A stretch of DNA of 14,036 nt, taken from assembly GCA_027063585.1 (NCBI GenBank), contig JAMORM010000246.1:1-14036 (forward strand). Reading direction: 5' to 3'. The DNA comes from Sulfurimonas sp. Its GTDB lineage: Bacteria; Campylobacterota; Campylobacteria; Campylobacterales; Sulfurimonadaceae. Within the stretch, counting starts at the first letter, position 1. Every line of letters starts with the position of its first letter. Below are positions 2,893 through 9,063 of the stretch, one piece after another. The translations under genes and the position numbers were made by a program. The notes under the pieces were generated by a model. The model did not search any database and was not told where the DNA came from. It worked only from the letters and a program-made list of their open reading frames with translations.

Positions 2893-3588
2893 TCAACTCT
2901 TATTTAATGCAAGATAAGCTTTTTCTAATTTTTTATACAAAATATCTGGTGTAACATCACTGTTTTCTTCCCAAATTCTTTTCATAACTACGTTATCTTC
3001 ATCACCATTCCAGACTTTAATATAGGTTCCTTCTTTATATCCATGATCTTGACGAAACTGATTCAAAATATTTTTTCCTACATACAGACGGTAGAGTGTA
3101 TCTAAGTTCAAGCCGCTCATACTTACTAGGTCAAAAAATTCCGATATCAATTCACCCAAATCAATTTCATCTTTTGATACGGCAATTCGTATAAGATTTT
3201 CCACTTTTTCAATCACATTTTCTTGTGTCGCAAATTTTAAAGTATCATTTTGAATATTGCTTAGCGATTCCAGTGCTGAAATATCTATAGCTATATCTTC
3301 AATACCGCCTTTTAAATTTTTTTCATACACCTCAATTGCCAAGCTCATTATAAAATGCCAGACATCAATAACTTCAATCTGATGATTTTGCCAGTCAGGC
3401 TCTACATCTATGCTTTTCCAATGTTTCCATCCAAAACTATCCACCATTTCTGCACATTCCATATATATACAGCGTTTCCAGTTAATTGTTTTTCCATTTT
3501 TTGTCACGCCTTTTGTCCAATTTTCGCCATTGGTTGCATCATTAAGCTGATTTTGCAGCTGTAACATCAAAAAAATTTTATTATCCAT
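2893..3588 (-). CDS. dut: Dimeric (all-alpha) dUTPase
   Basis: Hydrolyses dUTP to dUMP and pyrophosphate in the cytoplasm, keeping uracil out of DNA and feeding thymidylate synthesis. The 231-residue product resembles the all-alpha NTP pyrophosphatase family (MazG/dimeric dUTPase fold), as in Campylobacter jejuni, rather than the trimeric beta type. Near the N-terminus is MLQLQNQLND, typical of the first helix. The metal-binding acidic pairs are ECAE (about residues 44-47) and EVID (about 72-75), followed by WHF. The conserved GYKEGTYIKVW segment sits near residue 190. The ATG at 3588 is preferred over an adjacent upstream TTG because AAGGAAA lies at a good distance upstream. The gene is followed 4 bp later by the ABC ATPase gene and is divergent from a small cysteine protein. 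Confidence 0.88.
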   Translation of the reverse strand: MDNKIFLMLQLQNQLNDATNGENWTKGVTKNGKTINWKRCIYMECAEMVDSFGWKHWKSIDVEPDWQNHQIEVIDVWHFIMSLAIEVYEKNLKGGIEDIAIDISALESLSNIQNDTLKFATQENVIEKVENLIRIAVSKDEIDLGELISEFFDLVSMSGLNLDTLYRLYVGKNILNQFRQDHGYKEGTYIKVWNGDEDNVVMKRIWEENSDVTPDILYKKLEKAYLALNKS

Positions 3589-3617
3589 CAATTTCCTTTT
3601 GTTTATTTTATCTAATA

Positions 3618-3626
3618 TGCTAAAAT
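3618..3626 (+). promoter_or_regulatory. Extended -10 promoter for the small Cys protein
   Basis: TGCTAAAAT fits an extended -10 element (TGn plus TAAAAT) 24 bases before the ATG at 3650, with an AAGAGAG ribosome-site-like stretch between. The 61-bp gap to the divergent dUTPase gene must also hold that gene's promoter; the complementary strand has TA-rich candidates such as the TAAAAT around 3607-3612, so the two promoters probably overlap. No -35 is evident, which is common for the main sigma factor of Campylobacterota. Confidence 0.4.
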
Positions 3627-3649
3627 TTTCTACTTAAAAAGAGAGATTT

Positions 3650-3823
3650 ATGAAAAGAATTAATTGTAGAAAATGTGAGTATTATTATGTGACCTGGGAA
3701 GCATCCAAACCGCATGGCTGTAAAGCTTATGGATTCAAGTCAGCCCAAATTCCTTCTATGGTCGTTTTTAACAGTAGTGGAGCCGAATGCTCTTTATTTA
3801 AGGCAAAGAGGATGAGTAAATAA
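3650..3823 (+). CDS. Small four-cysteine protein, 57 residues
   Basis: A short open frame with good coding character. It starts at an ATG preceded by an AAGAGAG-like ribosome site and a plausible promoter, and it ends in TAA. The product is basic and has cysteines at 6, 9, 24 and 47, spaced CxxC then two single Cys, a pattern compatible with one zinc or iron-sulfur site. The N-terminal CRKCEYYYVTW and the PHGCKAYGFKS segment look like conserved-family sequence rather than a chance frame, and I recall similar small hypothetical proteins in proteobacteria without a named function. It overlaps the convergent YhbP-like gene by 26 bp at its 3' end and faces away from dut. No function is assigned; a metal-binding accessory protein is only an inference from the cysteines. 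Confidence 0.7.
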   Translation: MKRINCRKCEYYYVTWEASKPHGCKAYGFKSAQIPSMVVFNSSGAECSLFKAKRMSK

Positions 3824-4223
3824 TTTTTTTGCCAAACCCCAGTCTATTGTCTGTGAGTTTAAAATAATCCACCTCTATTTGCCACAATTTTGGCAACATT
3901 GCCAAAGCATAAGGAAAAGTTTTAAAATATAACTTTTTTAGCTCTTTATCATGCGATTCCTGCATTGTACCTCTAAACTGCAGTCCTTGTATTTTTCCTA
4001 CCTCATCTGTTTCAAGTAAAATATTACCGGCAACAGCAGAGTTTTGTAAAACATGCTTTACATGTAATGTCTCATCGCTGCTTGCAACGACAAAACAGAG
4101 TTTGTCGGTATCATAAGCATAAAAAAGACTGCAGACACTCAATTCTGCATTATTTGTAGTCGCAAGACTCATAACATGATGTTTGGCTATAAAAGCAGTA
4201 ATTTTTTGTATATCTTGATTCAT
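3798..4223 (-). CDS. YhbP-like (UPF0306) split-barrel protein
   Basis: A 141-residue protein resembling Escherichia coli YhbP (UPF0306), a member of the FMN-binding split-barrel (pyridoxamine-phosphate-oxidase-like) superfamily. The recognisable segments are IAKHHVMSLAT at 12-22, the central GKIQGLQFRGTM at 76-87, FPYALAMLPKLWQIEVDYFKL at about 103-123, and the family-typical TDNRLGFGKK at 124-133. Whether it binds flavin cannot be seen. The ATG at 4223 is chosen over an adjacent TTG because it overlaps the upstream stop as TGATG, a standard reinitiation arrangement. It is the last gene of the four-gene ovo unit, so a redox or thiol-related role is tempting, but that is guilt by association. 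Its 3' end overlaps the convergent small Cys gene by 26 bp. Confidence 0.8.
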   Translation of the reverse strand: MNQDIQKITAFIAKHHVMSLATTNNAELSVCSLFYAYDTDKLCFVVASSDETLHVKHVLQNSAVAGNILLETDEVGKIQGLQFRGTMQESHDKELKKLYFKTFPYALAMLPKLWQIEVDYFKLTDNRLGFGKKIIYSSSLP

Positions 4224-4444
4224 CAATGCTGATACATATAATTTTCTAATTTTTCCGCATCTGTAATATCGCGTTTGTCCAACATCATTTTTGCGGTTTC
4301 ATCCGCGCCCAGCATCTCAAATATATCAAATGGGTTTGTTATGTTGTAGTAACTTTTTATAAAATCAAGCAGTATTGAAAAATTATCTTTTTTTGTCGTA
4401 TATTTTTTATACTCTTTATATTCAGCCCAGTTTATATCAACCAA
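4223..4444 (-). CDS. Small protein of unknown function in the ovo operon
   Basis: Unrecognised product of 73 residues, predicted mostly helical and charged, with no cysteine, membrane segment or named motif. Aromatic and acidic runs occur near the start (DINWAEYKEYKKY), with FDIFEMLGADETAKMM in the middle. I chose a TTG start at 4444 because AAAGGAGAG ends about 4 bases upstream, the strongest ribosome site of this operon. It gives an 8-bp overlap with the ovoB stop. An upstream in-frame TTG at 4471 or GTG at 4465 would extend it to 82 or 80 residues with weaker signals. Its TGA overlaps the YhbP-like ATG as TGATG, so the two are probably translated in tandem. It may be a partner of one of the operon enzymes, but nothing in the sequence shows that. 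Confidence 0.65.
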   Translation of the reverse strand: MVDINWAEYKEYKKYTTKKDNFSILLDFIKSYYNITNPFDIFEMLGADETAKMMLDKRDITDAEKLENYMYQH

Positions 4445-5633
4445 TTTCTCTCCTTTGTAATGCACTTTCAAGTCGCCTTACTATCTCTGTCATTTTAGCA
4501 GAGCTAACAGCAAAATTCAAGCGCATAAAACCACTGCCTTCTCTGCCAAAACTAAGTCCGGGATTTAATCCGAGTTTTGCTTCATTGATGAAAAAATCTC
4601 TCAGTTTTTTGTCTGTCAAACCCATACCCCGGCAATCAATCCATCCCAGATAAGTCGCTTCTATAGGTGTTATCTTTATAAACTGTGGATATTTTTCTGC
4701 CACTGCTTCGAGCATTAAATAGTTGTTATACAGATGTTCTTTTAAGTCTTCAAGCCATCTCTTGCCCTTTTTATAGGCTGCTTCAAAAGCAACATGAGAA
4801 AGCGATGAACCTTGGGCGAAATGTACTCTGTCATATGCTTTTTTAAATTGCTCTTTAAGTTCTTTATTGGGTATAGATACACTACTCATGGCAAATCCGG
4901 CCATATTAAAGGTTTTGCCTACCCCGACAGCTGTCAGGGTTATGTTTTTCGCTTCTTCGCTCAGCGATGCAAAAGGTATATGTTTATAAGGTTGATAAAC
5001 TAAATCTGAATGTATTTCATCTGCAAAAACAATAATATCATTCTGCAGACAAATCTCTAATATCTCTTGGAGTTCCTCTTTTTGCCATACTCTTCCGACC
5101 GGATTATGAGGAGAGCATAACAATAAAAGTTTTGTATTTTTATCAATTTTTGTCTTTAAATCTTCAATATCAAATCTGTATGTTCCTTCAGAATCAAGCT
5201 TGAGAGAATTTTTAACAAGTTTGCGCTTAAGTTTTAAAACACTGTGAAAGAACGGAGGATACACAGGTGTTTGCACAATTACACCCTCCCCTTCTTTTGT
5301 AAAAGCTTCTATACATGTATGCATGGATGCCACAACAGAATGAGAATAGAGCATATCTTCTACATTCAAATCAACACCATGCTCTTTTTTCATCCACTCA
5401 ACCTGCGCCATAAATGCCGACTTTGGTACTTCTTCATAGCCCATAACCGGATGTTGAAGTCTTTGTTTTACGGCATCTAAAACACATTGCGGCGTATCTA
5501 TGTCCATATCTGCCACCCATACCGGCAAAATATCATCTGTGCCGAAAAGCTCTTTTCGCAGAACATACTTTTCCGCATTCGTCCCCTCACGCTCACAAGA
5601 CGTAGCAAAACTGTACTTTAACGCTTTTTCCAT
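4437..5633 (-). CDS. ovoB: PLP-dependent C-S lyase, MalY/PatB type, probable OvoB
   Basis: Fold-type I PLP enzyme of 398 residues in the MalY/PatB branch (cystathionine beta-lyase-like aminotransferases). Motifs in order: PVWVADMD at 37-44, the class-typical N-terminal block; SPHNPVGR at 174-181 with the cofactor-contacting Asn; FADEIHSDLVY at 203-213 whose Asp205 should bind the pyridine nitrogen; VGKTFN at 238-243 with Lys240 as the Schiff-base lysine; and FMRLNFA near the end with the carboxylate-binding Arg. In isolation it would be called a cystathionine beta-lyase or aminotransferase. Its start lies 16 bp inside the end of ovoA, so its likely job is OvoB: cleaving the histidine-cysteine sulfoxide made by OvoA to give 5-thiohistidine, with pyruvate and ammonia from the cysteine part. 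AGGTGAG precedes the ATG. The lyase family is certain; the ovothiol role is inference from context. Confidence 0.8.
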   Translation of the reverse strand: MEKALKYSFATSCEREGTNAEKYVLRKELFGTDDILPVWVADMDIDTPQCVLDAVKQRLQHPVMGYEEVPKSAFMAQVEWMKKEHGVDLNVEDMLYSHSVVASMHTCIEAFTKEGEGVIVQTPVYPPFFHSVLKLKRKLVKNSLKLDSEGTYRFDIEDLKTKIDKNTKLLLLCSPHNPVGRVWQKEELQEILEICLQNDIIVFADEIHSDLVYQPYKHIPFASLSEEAKNITLTAVGVGKTFNMAGFAMSSVSIPNKELKEQFKKAYDRVHFAQGSSLSHVAFEAAYKKGKRWLEDLKEHLYNNYLMLEAVAEKYPQFIKITPIEATYLGWIDCRGMGLTDKKLRDFFINEAKLGLNPGLSFGREGSGFMRLNFAVSSAKMTEIVRRLESALQRREIG

Positions 5634-7717
5634 ACACTCACCTGCGAAATCGTATGCTGATATTTTCTTGCCGTCTCTTTTATAACAAACTCCAAATCTT
5701 CTACATGTAAAAGTTCAAACTTCTCTGCTAAAATATCTTTTAAACACTCTATCGTTTTTATCTCTTTGCCGTTTTCATCTTTATAACCGCCGAGCCAAAA
5801 CTCTTTTTTCGTAGAACTTTCCTGCCATGTATAGGGAGATGTAAGCATCAAAATACCATCATTATTCAGTCTCTCATCAATCGTATCCAAAAAGAGTCTC
5901 GGATTATAGAGTCTGTCTATCAGATTTGTCGCCATTATCAAATCATAACTATTAAAATTTGGCTTGAGATTACAGGCATCCCCCTGCCAAAAGGAGACTT
6001 TTTTTGCTAAATTCTCATAACCTAGATCCTGCAGAGTTATTTTTTTATTTACTGTGAGTTCACCCTCTTGTTTTGTACTAAAAGCAACATAACCCTCATC
6101 TTTTAATTTGGAACCTACACTCACAAAACGCACAGAAAAGTCTATGCCCTCAATACTATCAAAAGTTTTTGCAAGCTCATAGCTCGCTCGCCCTGTTGCA
6201 CAGCCCAAATCAAGTGCTTTTGTTGTATTTGACGCATATTTTGAAGCGATTTTTGCACAAGCAACAGCAAAATTATCAACACCGAAATGGATATCGCCGT
6301 ACTGAAATTCACAATACTGAGAGACAAGTTCGTCACTTTCATAAATGTCACTCCTTTCATCTTCTGTATTACATGTAATGACGTAACGAAAACCTGCATT
6401 TTGAAAAAAATGTTTTCTAAAAGCGTACCGAGAATGTTTCATTATTAAATTCCCGCTGCTTGCCCACGATGAACCTAATATAAGAGCATGTTTGTCATCA
6501 AATGTTGGTACAGAAAAATCATCATAAGCTTCATGCACTTCAAAGCCTTTATATCCTCGTATAGGCGTTCGGCTCCATTGCCAGACATTCCCTATCACAT
6601 CATAAATTCCATTAAAACTAAACTCATCTACAGGACAGGATGAAGCATAATGATAAAAATTAATATTTGCTCGGCTTTCATGCAACTCGGGAACATCTTT
6701 AAGATTTGAATGCTGATACACAACTTCATATTCGGCTTCACTCGCCAAAGCATAGCTGAGTTTGTCTTTTTGACTTTTATACCTGCAAAACGCTTCCGCT
6801 TCTAAAGCATTCACATCCACAGGCCAATCCAGTGGCATATCTATAATTTCACTCAATGCCCGGTATTTAAAAATTGTATCTTCTTTTACCCAGAAATGCG
6901 GATATTTTGCTTGAGATTTTTGTAAAAATTCCAATCCTTCTGCATCCCAAAACTCTTCTCTCTCATACCCGCCCTCATTGACAAATTCCAAAAATTCACC
7001 GTTGCTCACAAGGTATTTTGATACTTGAAAATCCTGCACGACTTCACGATAACTGCCATACTCATTATCCCAACCGTAGAGGTTATGTGATTTGTCTTTG
7101 CCTAATGTAATTTCTGCACCCTTTATTGTAATCATCTCGTTTTTTGGTGCATTTGAGGTATGTGTACATAGATTAAATTCAGGTACTTCCTTTATAAATT
7201 CAATAGGCATCTGACGATGCAAAACAAGTGAAGTCTCAATATGAATACGCTCATGCTCAATCCCCATAAGTATAATCCACATAGGGGAGTCATCCTGAAT
7301 CGGCAGTGTAAAATCCAGATGCATAATCAAGCTCTCAACAAGTCTGCGTACAGCATCTCGGTAAGCTCTAACCTCTCTTACTTGTGGCCATTTATAATGA
7401 GATTCGTGCATATCATCCCAACTCATTTCATCCACGCCCACGGCAAAAATAGATTCAAATTCAGGATTTATTCTCTCATTTATTATCTTCATATTAATGA
7501 GTTTATTCACAAAAAAAGTCGCCGTATGCCCAAAATAAAATATCATCGGATGGCGGGTCGGTTCACTTTTTTTATAAAAAACACTCTCATCTTTTAAGAG
7601 TTCAAACACCTTTTCAAACAAATCAAATGTATTATGAAAATATGCGAGTATCTCTTCACGTTTTTTTGCAACACTCTCACCGTCAAGTGTTATGGGGTAC
7701 ATACTTAGTTTACTCAA
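5618..7717 (-). CDS. ovoA: OvoA: 5-histidylcysteine sulfoxide synthase / 5-thiohistidine N-methyltransferase
   Basis: Three-domain enzyme of 699 residues, the usual size of full-length OvoA. An N-terminal DinB_2-like helical domain (about 15-175) carries the mononuclear iron site: HERIHIE at 155-161 is the HxxxHxE motif, and His64 in GHTATFF is a good third-ligand candidate. A formylglycine-generating-enzyme-like domain (about 195-450) shows GNVWQWSR at 376-383, SSWASSG around 416-422 and AGFRY at 441-445. A SAM-dependent methyltransferase domain (about 465-699) has DLGCATGR at 503-510. OvoA uses oxygen and iron to couple cysteine sulfur to C5 of histidine; the methyltransferase end should N-methylate 5-thiohistidine to ovothiol A. 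The TTG start is preceded by AAGGAAG at a good distance; the next ATG (codon 6) lacks such a site. It heads the minus-strand operon and overlaps ovoB by 16 bp. EgtB-type ergothioneine synthase is less likely because those usually lack the C-terminal methyltransferase fusion. Confidence 0.92.
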   Translation of the reverse strand: MSKLSMYPITLDGESVAKKREEILAYFHNTFDLFEKVFELLKDESVFYKKSEPTRHPMIFYFGHTATFFVNKLINMKIINERINPEFESIFAVGVDEMSWDDMHESHYKWPQVREVRAYRDAVRRLVESLIMHLDFTLPIQDDSPMWIILMGIEHERIHIETSLVLHRQMPIEFIKEVPEFNLCTHTSNAPKNEMITIKGAEITLGKDKSHNLYGWDNEYGSYREVVQDFQVSKYLVSNGEFLEFVNEGGYEREEFWDAEGLEFLQKSQAKYPHFWVKEDTIFKYRALSEIIDMPLDWPVDVNALEAEAFCRYKSQKDKLSYALASEAEYEVVYQHSNLKDVPELHESRANINFYHYASSCPVDEFSFNGIYDVIGNVWQWSRTPIRGYKGFEVHEAYDDFSVPTFDDKHALILGSSWASSGNLIMKHSRYAFRKHFFQNAGFRYVITCNTEDERSDIYESDELVSQYCEFQYGDIHFGVDNFAVACAKIASKYASNTTKALDLGCATGRASYELAKTFDSIEGIDFSVRFVSVGSKLKDEGYVAFSTKQEGELTVNKKITLQDLGYENLAKKVSFWQGDACNLKPNFNSYDLIMATNLIDRLYNPRLFLDTIDERLNNDGILMLTSPYTWQESSTKKEFWLGGYKDENGKEIKTIECLKDILAEKFELLHVEDLEFVIKETARKYQHTISQVSVWKKR

Positions 7718-7743
7718 TCTTTATCTTCCTTTTTCATCGGGTT

Positions 7744-7749
7744 ATTGTA
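7744..7749 (-). promoter_or_regulatory. Candidate -10 of the ovoA promoter
   Basis: On the minus strand TACAAT lies about 27 bases upstream of the ovoA TTG and just upstream of the AAGGAAG ribosome site. There is no TTGACA-like -35 at the right distance; instead that position is occupied by the inverted repeat at 7766-7783. The assignment rests on sequence match and position only. Confidence 0.4.
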
Positions 7750-7765
7750 TTTTTCAAGACTAAGG

Positions 7766-7783
7766 CCTAGGTTAAAACCTAGG
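7766..7783. repeat. Inverted repeat CCTAGGTT-AA-AACCTAGG, possible operator of ovoA
   Basis: Two perfect 8-bp arms (7766-7773 and 7776-7783) flank AA. The half CCTAGGTT also recurs as a direct copy at 7778-7785. It covers the place where the -35 of the ovoA promoter would sit, so a regulator binding site is the simplest reading. In RNA it would make a hairpin only if the tight 2-base loop opened. No known regulator's consensus was matched. Confidence 0.5.
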
Positions 7784-7813
7784 TTCCGAAAGAATATCGA
7801 ACTTTTATCTTAA

Positions 7814-7828
7814 CTTAATAGTATTAAG
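7814..7828. repeat. Perfect 7-bp inverted repeat CTTAATA-G-TATTAAG
   Basis: A 15-bp dyad with a single central G lies midway between ovoA and pgeF. It is all A/T apart from the outer C/G pair and the centre, so it suits a protein-binding site better than a stable RNA hairpin. No T-tract follows on either strand, which argues against a terminator. It could serve either divergent gene. Confidence 0.4.
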
Positions 7829-7837
7829 GTTTTAATC

Positions 7838-7878
7838 TAGTCTGATTTACCTGAAAGCCTAAAAGGCGAAACTACAGA
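7838..7878 (+). other. Small nested RNA fold in the ovoA-pgeF spacer
   Basis: On the plus strand GCCT/AGGC with an AAA loop (7857-7867) is nested inside a possible TCTG/CAGA outer pairing (7841-7844 with 7875-7878). The flanks CTGAAA (7851-7856) and GAAAC (7868-7872) are unpaired, and TAGTC (7838-7842) can pair with part of GAACTA-type sequence downstream (AAACTA at 7869-7874). It lies upstream of, not inside, the predicted pgeF transcript if the TATAAT at 7928 is used. No named riboswitch family was matched. Treat as a possible structured element only. Confidence 0.25.
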
Positions 7879-7927
7879 AAAAAATTTAGTTTTGAATTAT
7901 CGTGCTTTCTCAGCCGTTCCCTTATGT

Positions 7928-7933
7928 TATAAT
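7928..7933 (+). promoter_or_regulatory. Consensus -10 (TATAAT) directly before pgeF
   Basis: A perfect TATAAT ends 6 bases before the ATG at 7940, which puts the expected transcription start at about the A of that ATG. No Shine-Dalgarno sequence lies upstream of the ATG. Together these suggest a leaderless mRNA. The alternative is transcription from further upstream through the structured spacer. Confidence 0.5.
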
Positions 7934-7939
7934 CATTAT

Positions 7940-8662
7940 ATGAAATTTTATCAAAGTAAATTATTAAATAACTACTCAAAGCTCACACATGCCTTTACAT
8001 GTAAGGAAAGTAACAACCTAGCCTTTCATGTTAATGATATAAAAAAAAATGTAATACAAAATCATAAACATCTGGCAAAAGAACTCAATTATGATTACAA
8101 AACACTTGTTCATATGAAACAAATCCATTCAAATATCGTAAAAATCATTGATGAAAATGATAATTTTGACAATCCTCCTACCTGCGATGCTCTTATTACA
8201 AATAAAAAGAAAACTCCCCTTATGGTGATGGTAGCTGACTGCTCACCACTCCTCTTTTTTGATCCAAAACAAAATGTTATCGCTACAGCGCATGCCGGTA
8301 GAGCAGGAGCATTTGAAAATATAATTCAAAATGTCATACTTAGTTTTATACATGATTTTCATTCTGATATTAAGGATATTATAGTAAGTATAGGACCTGC
8401 AATCTGTCAAAACTGCTATGAGATTAATAACGAGATATACCAAGAGGTAAAAGAGAGAAAACTTGATTTTGCTGTAAGTAAAAAAGGCAAAAAAATTTAT
8501 TTGGATATTCGAAAAATACTCTTAAAACAATTACATGTAATGGGTATAAAAGAAAAAAATATTGAAATATCAGAGATTTGTAACTGCTGTCATGCAGATA
8601 CATTTTATTCCTATAGAAAAAATAACAACACGGGGAGATTTGCCGGTATTATAATGCTTTAA
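7940..8662 (+). CDS. pgeF: PgeF/YfiH family protein (multicopper polyphenol oxidase-type, purine nucleoside phosphorylase)
   Basis: Cytosolic protein of 240 residues, normal for the YfiH/YlmD/DUF152 family. Members have been described as purine nucleoside phosphorylases/adenosine deaminases and, for E. coli, as an editing enzyme in peptidoglycan precursor synthesis; the older laccase label is probably misleading. The three metal-site residues are visible: His63 in MKQIHSN, Cys101 in MVADCSPLLFFDP and His118 in ATAHAGRAG. The usual AHAGWRG reads AHAGRAG here. The C-terminal SYRKNNNTGRFAGIIML is also typical. An in-frame TTG at 7892 would add 16 residues, but MKFYQSKLL at the ATG fits the family start. 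A TATAAT lies right before that ATG without a ribosome site. Its stop overlaps the convergent rrf2-type gene by 4 bp. It is divergent from ovoA. Confidence 0.88.
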   Translation: MKFYQSKLLNNYSKLTHAFTCKESNNLAFHVNDIKKNVIQNHKHLAKELNYDYKTLVHMKQIHSNIVKIIDENDNFDNPPTCDALITNKKKTPLMVMVADCSPLLFFDPKQNVIATAHAGRAGAFENIIQNVILSFIHDFHSDIKDIIVSIGPAICQNCYEINNEIYQEVKERKLDFAVSKKGKKIYLDIRKILLKQLHVMGIKEKNIEISEICNCCHADTFYSYRKNNNTGRFAGIIML

Positions 8663-9063
8663 ATTTCGTAAAAATATGTCGCATAGGCACGGTCAAGTTC
8701 AGATAATTTTATATTAAAAACTGCTCTGACTTTTTCTTGAATATCTTTCCAAAACGAATTTAGTACTACACTTGCACCCACATTTTCAGACACAGTAAAA
8801 AGTTCACCTTCTAAAGCTTCAACAACATCCAAAACTATAATCTTAGAAGCATCGGATGCTAATTTATACCCGCCGTTTGCCCCTCTTACACTTATAACAA
8901 AGCCGTGTTTTTTTAAACTTGAAAGAATCTGTTCAAGATAGCCGTGTGATATTTGTGTAACTGCGGCTATTTCTTTAATCTGCATCAGTTTATTTCTTGG
9001 AGAGTTATACAGGGCATGCATTGCGGCAACACCATAAAGACTTTTTGTAGAAACACCTACCAT
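8659..9063 (-). CDS. Rrf2 family transcriptional regulator without cysteines
   Basis: Winged-helix regulator of 134 residues in the Rrf2 family (relatives are IscR, NsrR and CymR). The N-terminal STKSLYGVAAMHALY is the family start. The recognition region IKEIAAVTQISHGYLEQILSSLKKHG spans about 29-54, and the wing VRGANGGYKLA spans about 59-69. It contains no cysteine at all, so it cannot bind an Fe-S cluster in the IscR/NsrR manner; the sensing mode must differ (CymR-like protein partner, ligand or none). The ATG overlaps the DUF4395 stop as TGATG, so the regulator is translated as the second gene of that operon and probably controls it through the palindrome at 9506-9536. A known named orthologue was not recognised. 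Confidence 0.88.
   Translation of the reverse strand: MVGVSTKSLYGVAAMHALYNSPRNKLMQIKEIAAVTQISHGYLEQILSSLKKHGFVISVRGANGGYKLASDASKIIVLDVVEALEGELFTVSENVGASVVLNSFWKDIQEKVRAVFNIKLSELDRAYATYFYEI

Follow-up and report, generated by a model that had tools for sequence, protein, structure and literature searches.

Gene content of the locus

The window analysed here is a stretch of 14,036 nucleotides from Sulfurimonas sp. (contig JAMORM010000246.1; assembly of 1.53 Mb, 73% complete), and the view taken in a first-pass annotation, that it derives from a Campylobacterota-like genome, is supported. ORF calling places four genes head to tail on the reverse strand at 3798–7717, namely ovoA, ovoB, a small gene here called S73 and a yhbP-like gene (Table 1). 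The four-gene locus described in that annotation is therefore present, with overlaps of 16 bp (ovoA/ovoB), 8 bp (ovoB/S73) and 1 bp (S73/yhbP). Judging from their recurring homologues and the predominance of synonymous changes, all four are real genes. The unit is probably co-transcribed, and its promoter would be expected in the intergenic stretch between ovoA and the divergent yfiH frame. A consensus scan of 3500–8100 gave 18 promoter-like sites (16.1, sd 3.7, in shuffled sequences) and five terminator-like sites (2.6, sd 2.0, in shuffled sequences).

Table 1. Positions of the ovoA–yhbP genes and of the adjoining intergenic stretch in the window

Feature	Position	Strand	Description
ovoA	5618..7717	-	699 aa, TTG start after aaggaag
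ovoB	4437..5633	-	398 aa, ATG start, PatB-family PLP C-S lyase
S73	4223..4444	-	73 aa, TTG start, helical protein
yhbP-like gene	3798..4223	-	141 aa, ATG start, split-barrel (PNPOx-like) protein
Intergenic stretch, divergent yfiH frame to ovoA	7718..7891		terminator-like hairpin 7766-7783 (-)

Two further frames lie close by. The ORF o57 (3650–3823, forward strand; 57 aa, four cysteines) overlaps the end of the yhbP-like gene tail to tail; it has no Pfam or NCBIfam match and is itself matched in 22 of 39 loci compared. An Rrf2-family regulator is encoded at 8659–9063 (reverse strand) and is matched upstream of ovoA in seven of the 39 loci; because its translation contains no cysteine, it is by sequence not of the iron-sulfur type.

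Identity of OvoA and OvoB

The ovoA product scores 649.7 bits against TIGR04344 (cut-off 400), the equivalog model for the N-terminal sulfoxide synthase, and 322.6 bits against TIGR04345 (cut-off 170), that for the C-terminal thiohistidine N-methyltransferase. Its DinB_2 and FGE-sulfatase domains are followed by the C-terminal 5-thiohistidine N-methyltransferase, and over residues 3–698, near its full length, it matches the solved OvoA structure 8khq with 831 bits, as against 347 bits for EgtB-IV and about 60 bits for EgtB in the same PDB sequence search. The C-terminal part taken separately resembles OvoM (9bxl, 305 bits) more than OvsM (9bxh, 199 bits). The two family models and the 8khq match bear out the earlier identification of the protein as OvoA (5-histidylcysteine sulfoxide synthase/4-mercaptohistidine N1-methyltransferase). 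It has the same three domains as 8khq, and no feature distinguishing the two was found, initiation at TTG and the genes that share the operon being features of the lineage. EgtB and SenA were also considered as identities and rejected on model scores, at 172.9 bits (cut-off 360) and 155 bits (cut-off 420), respectively. The HxxxHxE motif spans H155–E161, and H64, H155, H159 and E161, which from work on EgtB and OvoA we take to be the iron-site residues, are invariant in 28 of 28 OvoA proteins (that of the window and 27 relatives). Elsewhere, in genus g26, the open frames for OvoA at two loci (L151 and L152) measure 487 and 474 aa, which suggests from sequence that these proteins lack the C-terminal methyltransferase domain; the pathway may end at 5-thiohistidine there, or a separate enzyme may take over.

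The ovoB product, encoded 16 bp into the end of ovoA, reaches 553.6 bits against TIGR04350 (cut-off 340), which places it among the PatB-family PLP C-S lyases and fits OvoB, the PLP sulfoxide lyase of the first-pass annotation. Its likeness to OvoB is by family model, and its closest relative in the PDB is the cystathionine beta-lyase PatB (6qp3, 302 bits). K240, in the motif GVGKTF, is presumably the PLP lysine. The pathway proposed earlier, of OvoA, a PLP lyase and a methyltransferase, agrees with these family models and structure matches, and at the level of sequence an ovothiol A pathway at this locus is well supported. By analogy with the chemistry described in the introduction of PMC12631010 and in passages of PMC9103826, OvoA would join histidine and cysteine with O2 to give 5-histidylcysteine sulfoxide, OvoB would cleave this product to 5-thiohistidine, and the C-terminal domain of OvoA would methylate the ring nitrogen of 5-thiohistidine to yield ovothiol A.

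The two trailing genes

The 73-residue frame chosen for S73 in the first-pass annotation has a well-placed start, TTG 4444 lying directly after aaaggagagaaa, whereas the longer 82-aa frame from TTG 4471 lacks such a site. S73 has no match in Pfam or NCBIfam, and its AlphaFold model (pLDDT 95.7), which has five helices, found no PDB match with E<=0.001 in Foldseek. There are 901 homologues at E<=1e-3, and among the best 120 of these the organism-named ones come from Sulfurimonas, Campylobacterales or Campylobacterota. The dN/dS ratio of S73 was 0.13 and 0.10 in the comparisons with L032 and L043; the comparison with L065 was saturated, and that with L031 was left out because it was in a wrong frame.

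The ATG of the yhbP-like gene shares one base with the stop codon of S73 (TGATG). Its earlier naming as YhbP/UPF0306 holds approximately: some public records give close relatives that name, but the window protein scores 109.1 bits against NF002900, under the cut-off of 176 for the YhbP equivalog, and 23.2 bits against PF01243, under the gathering threshold of 28.1. The AlphaFold model (pLDDT 91.1) gave 133 PDB matches at E<=0.001, the best being 6vna (TM 0.79), and so predicts a PNPOx-like split barrel; like YhbP/UPF0306 and the PNPOx-like barrels (HugZ/ChuZ, Pden_1323, Rv1155), the protein would be a split barrel, with TM (query) values of about 0.6–0.8 to heme- and F420-binding and PNPOx-like members, although it falls under the curated cut-offs. 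In all four comparisons made, dN/dS lay between 0.07 and 0.12. The flavin, heme and F420 barrels among the fold matches are consistent with a flavin- or heme-type protein that may have a role of its own.

A PNPOx-like fold in the model also raises the question of whether YhbP replaces pyridoxamine-phosphate oxidase (PdxH) and so feeds PLP to the OvoB-type lyase. Canonical pdxH (TIGR00558) is rare in the order: of 248 genomes sampled, only 26 exceed the cut-off, among them 1 of the 22 in the family, and the window's own genome has no match. The gene accompanies YhbP less often than expected (4 of 89 genomes with YhbP, 22 of 159 without; p 0.03, kinship ignored). However, TIGR00558 is not among the matches of YhbP at E<=0.001, and 137 of the 248 genomes have neither gene, so that YhbP is not a general replacement for PdxH; we regard this explanation as very improbable.

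Occurrence and gene order

Of the 248 genomes from the order, 102 have an OvoA over the TIGR04344 cut-off, as does 1 of 14 control genomes. Among 60 relatives surveyed, the own genome included, 35 of the 37 members of the genus have an OvoA match, and of the misses only G020 looks truly devoid of OvoA, because the contig of G022 ends inside ovoB. A passage in PMC9103826 on the distribution of OvoA/OvoB describes two species bearing them as anaerobic; it cites two references for this, among them the Sulfurimonas hongkongensis genome paper. On account of this citation and of the count for the order, the pathway genes cannot be called new; ovothiol genes are already known in the group, and the locus is a further case of a known pathway.

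An absence of the trailing genes from the ovoA loci of close relatives, which the first-pass annotation would have counted against its reading, was not seen: both are usually present, S73 in 31 of the 37 genus genomes and YhbP in 35 (own genome included). The order ovoA-ovoB-S73-yhbP, with yfiH divergent ahead of it, recurs in the genus, the four genes also stand in this order in genus g25, and the arrangement looks old in the family. Adjacency alone says little, because the conserved order often extends to o57, a dUTPase, an ABC ATPase and CrcB.

Linkage was followed further in 80 named loci, the best 80 of 101 S73 matches; they are not independent of the first set of loci, since 18 of the 80 share S73 DNA with a first-set locus. 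Of these loci, 66 also carry a dUTPase in the same orientation. ovoA is next to ovoB in 60, separated from it in six (L204, L220, L222, L228, L234 and L235), not within the flank in five and cut by the contig end in six, the other three being without ovoB. At another locus (L038:6412–9474) a 1020-aa ORF sits between ovoA and ovoB.

In 77 of the 80, the gene directly upstream of S73 is ovoB; the two are within 200 bp of each other in 72 loci and 218–397 bp apart in five, where the gap contains only short opposite-strand frames. One of the 72, L217, has a match to residues 343–393 of ovoB only, and the three loci with no ovoB beside S73 are L206, L213 and L167, the last with a flank of only 0.8 kb. 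In all 11 named loci in which ovoA is separated or not within the flank (L217 included), ovoB stays upstream of S73. On the other side, yhbP follows S73 within 200 bp in 71 loci, is separated in four (L202, L210, L214 and L219) and is not found downstream in five (L175, L181, L201, L226 and L233); S73 is with ovoB in all nine of these. At L214:6237–8237 the genes between S73 and yhbP are Sir2-like and ADP-ribosylhydrolase-like, as named by eye from their translations. So close a linkage of S73 to ovoB is more than would be required of a pure passenger, although synteny is broad in this region.

Separate losses and association with OvoA

Although the four genes usually travel together, they can be lost or kept independently, and for this reason S73 and yhbP are probably not required ovothiol genes. 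G070 (completeness 100) has no OvoA match, and its 15-kb locus, in which no match to ovoB was found, keeps yfiH, S73-yhbP and o57-dUTPase-ABC. In a tree of YhbP, dUTPase and o57 from 26 loci chosen for gene content, in which the inner genus nodes are weak, G070 stands between the groups of genus g25 and genus g1, both with the full order, at ultrafast bootstrap values of 87 and 85; because it nests among ovoA-bearing lineages, ovoA-ovoB was most simply lost there. The genomes of L206, where dxs directly precedes S73-yhbP, and of L217 also have no OvoA match, as genomes without a completeness figure. In G282 ovoA-ovoB is on another contig and S73-yhbP is still found between yfiH and dUTPase, and in G020 and G085 (completeness 99) yhbP is kept with no match to OvoA or S73. 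A relative of S73 lies behind dprA in G057, which has no OvoA match. Conversely, ovoA and yhbP are kept with no S73 match in three g26 genomes and in six OvoA-bearing genomes of the genus (G012, G014, G026, G036, G271 and G280); of the latter, G036 and G271 have ovoA-ovoB-yhbP without S73, as do G171, G204 and G246. G035, whose locus is also L226, has ovoA-ovoB-S73 without yhbP. Several of the genomes with missing genes are MAGs, in which an absence may be missing DNA and is weaker evidence.

In the order beyond the family, neither trailing gene is positively associated with OvoA. Among the 226 genomes outside the family, YhbP is present in 19 of 83 with OvoA and in 49 of 143 without (p 0.10, direction negative), and S73 in 1 of 83 and 3 of 143, respectively (p 1.0), 'without' meaning below the TIGR04344 cut-off and thus including G224, with a cut gene of 130 bits. 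One of the three S73 genomes without OvoA, G201, has a weak match (E 7.6e-4) with an internal stop. Genomes of the family itself are too few for a test of association, either for S73 (11 of 19 with OvoA, 1 of 3 without; Fisher p 0.57) or for YhbP (18 of 19 with OvoA, 3 of 3 without; p 1.0).

The first-pass annotation had all four genes acting in the making, recycling or use of ovothiol. In such a system YhbP could, for instance, be a reductase of ovothiol disulfide that depends on flavin. The overlaps would suit such a system, as would the match of the predicted YhbP fold to flavin, heme and F420 barrels, and in 9 of the 80 named loci all four genes are together where dUTPase is not found despite more than 3 kb after yhbP. 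Glutathione is relevant here as well: the canonical glutathione synthetase (TIGR01380), the one glutathione route examined, is over the cut-off in none of the 60 relatives, in keeping with the earlier description of the group as glutathione-free, so that another disulfide-reducing route would be needed. Weaker TIGR01380 matches occur in 36 of the 60; the strongest, in G038, reaches 218.9 bits and so falls short of the cut-off of 299, which three control genomes exceed. Against a four-gene system, however, G070 and the L206 genome retain S73-yhbP although neither has an OvoA match, G020 and G085 retain yhbP alone, ovoA-ovoB occurs without S73 in several genomes, and YhbP is found in the 49 OvoA-negative genomes outside the family noted above. 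In family f20, moreover, the 18 genomes with both OvoA and YhbP have the two genes either on one contig and more than 100 kb apart (nine) or on different contigs (nine). Since S73 and yhbP persist without OvoA, are absent from several OvoA genomes and do not associate positively with it beyond the family, the claim that the trailing genes act in ovothiol metabolism is not supported, and we consider a four-gene system unlikely.

An ovothiol role is not supported for yhbP; for S73 it is possible, mainly because of the close linkage to ovoB, which is the one lead to such a role. S73 alone might be the true partner, an OvoB accessory binding, stabilizing or channelling 5-histidylcysteine sulfoxide, with YhbP as a passenger. 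The 77 loci with ovoB directly upstream argue for this, as does the retention of ovoB beside S73 both where ovoA is split off or out of the flank and where yhbP is separated or not found. Yet no ovoB lies beside S73 in G070, L206 or L213, the S73 relative of G057 stands behind dprA in a genome with no OvoA match, and the six genus genomes listed above have OvoA and no S73 match; we find an accessory role doubtful. Put more broadly, there is an outside chance that S73 is an undescribed, lineage-specific OvoB partner that belongs to the ovothiol pathway as a small protein without enzyme activity and handles 5-histidylcysteine sulfoxide or 5-thiohistidine.

Interpretation and significance

Our current working hypothesis, which we think likely, is that ovoA-ovoB is an ovothiol A pair heading a family-conserved unit in which S73 and yhbP are coupled passengers. 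The passenger status of both would follow from their separate losses, and S73 would be a small helical protein tending to remain behind ovoB. Extra genes around ovoA have been described before, the passages of PMC12631010 on Proteiniphilum presenting a 5-thiohistidine N-acetyltransferase cluster as an ovoA neighbourhood with additional genes, three of which were there judged unlinked to 5-thiohistidine, partly for occurring without OvoA. The present locus likewise has extra genes around ovoA, but the extra enzyme in Proteiniphilum is a GNAT-like acetyltransferase, as that source describes it, and neither S73 nor YhbP resembles one.

The neighbours described here outlive the pathway genes, which cautions against assigning pathway roles from operon overlap alone. 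With OvoA in so large a share of the genomes sampled, ovothiol genes are ordinary equipment in the order, and such bacteria, in which canonical glutathione synthetase was over the cut-off in none of the relatives surveyed, could help in asking what ovothiol does without glutathione.
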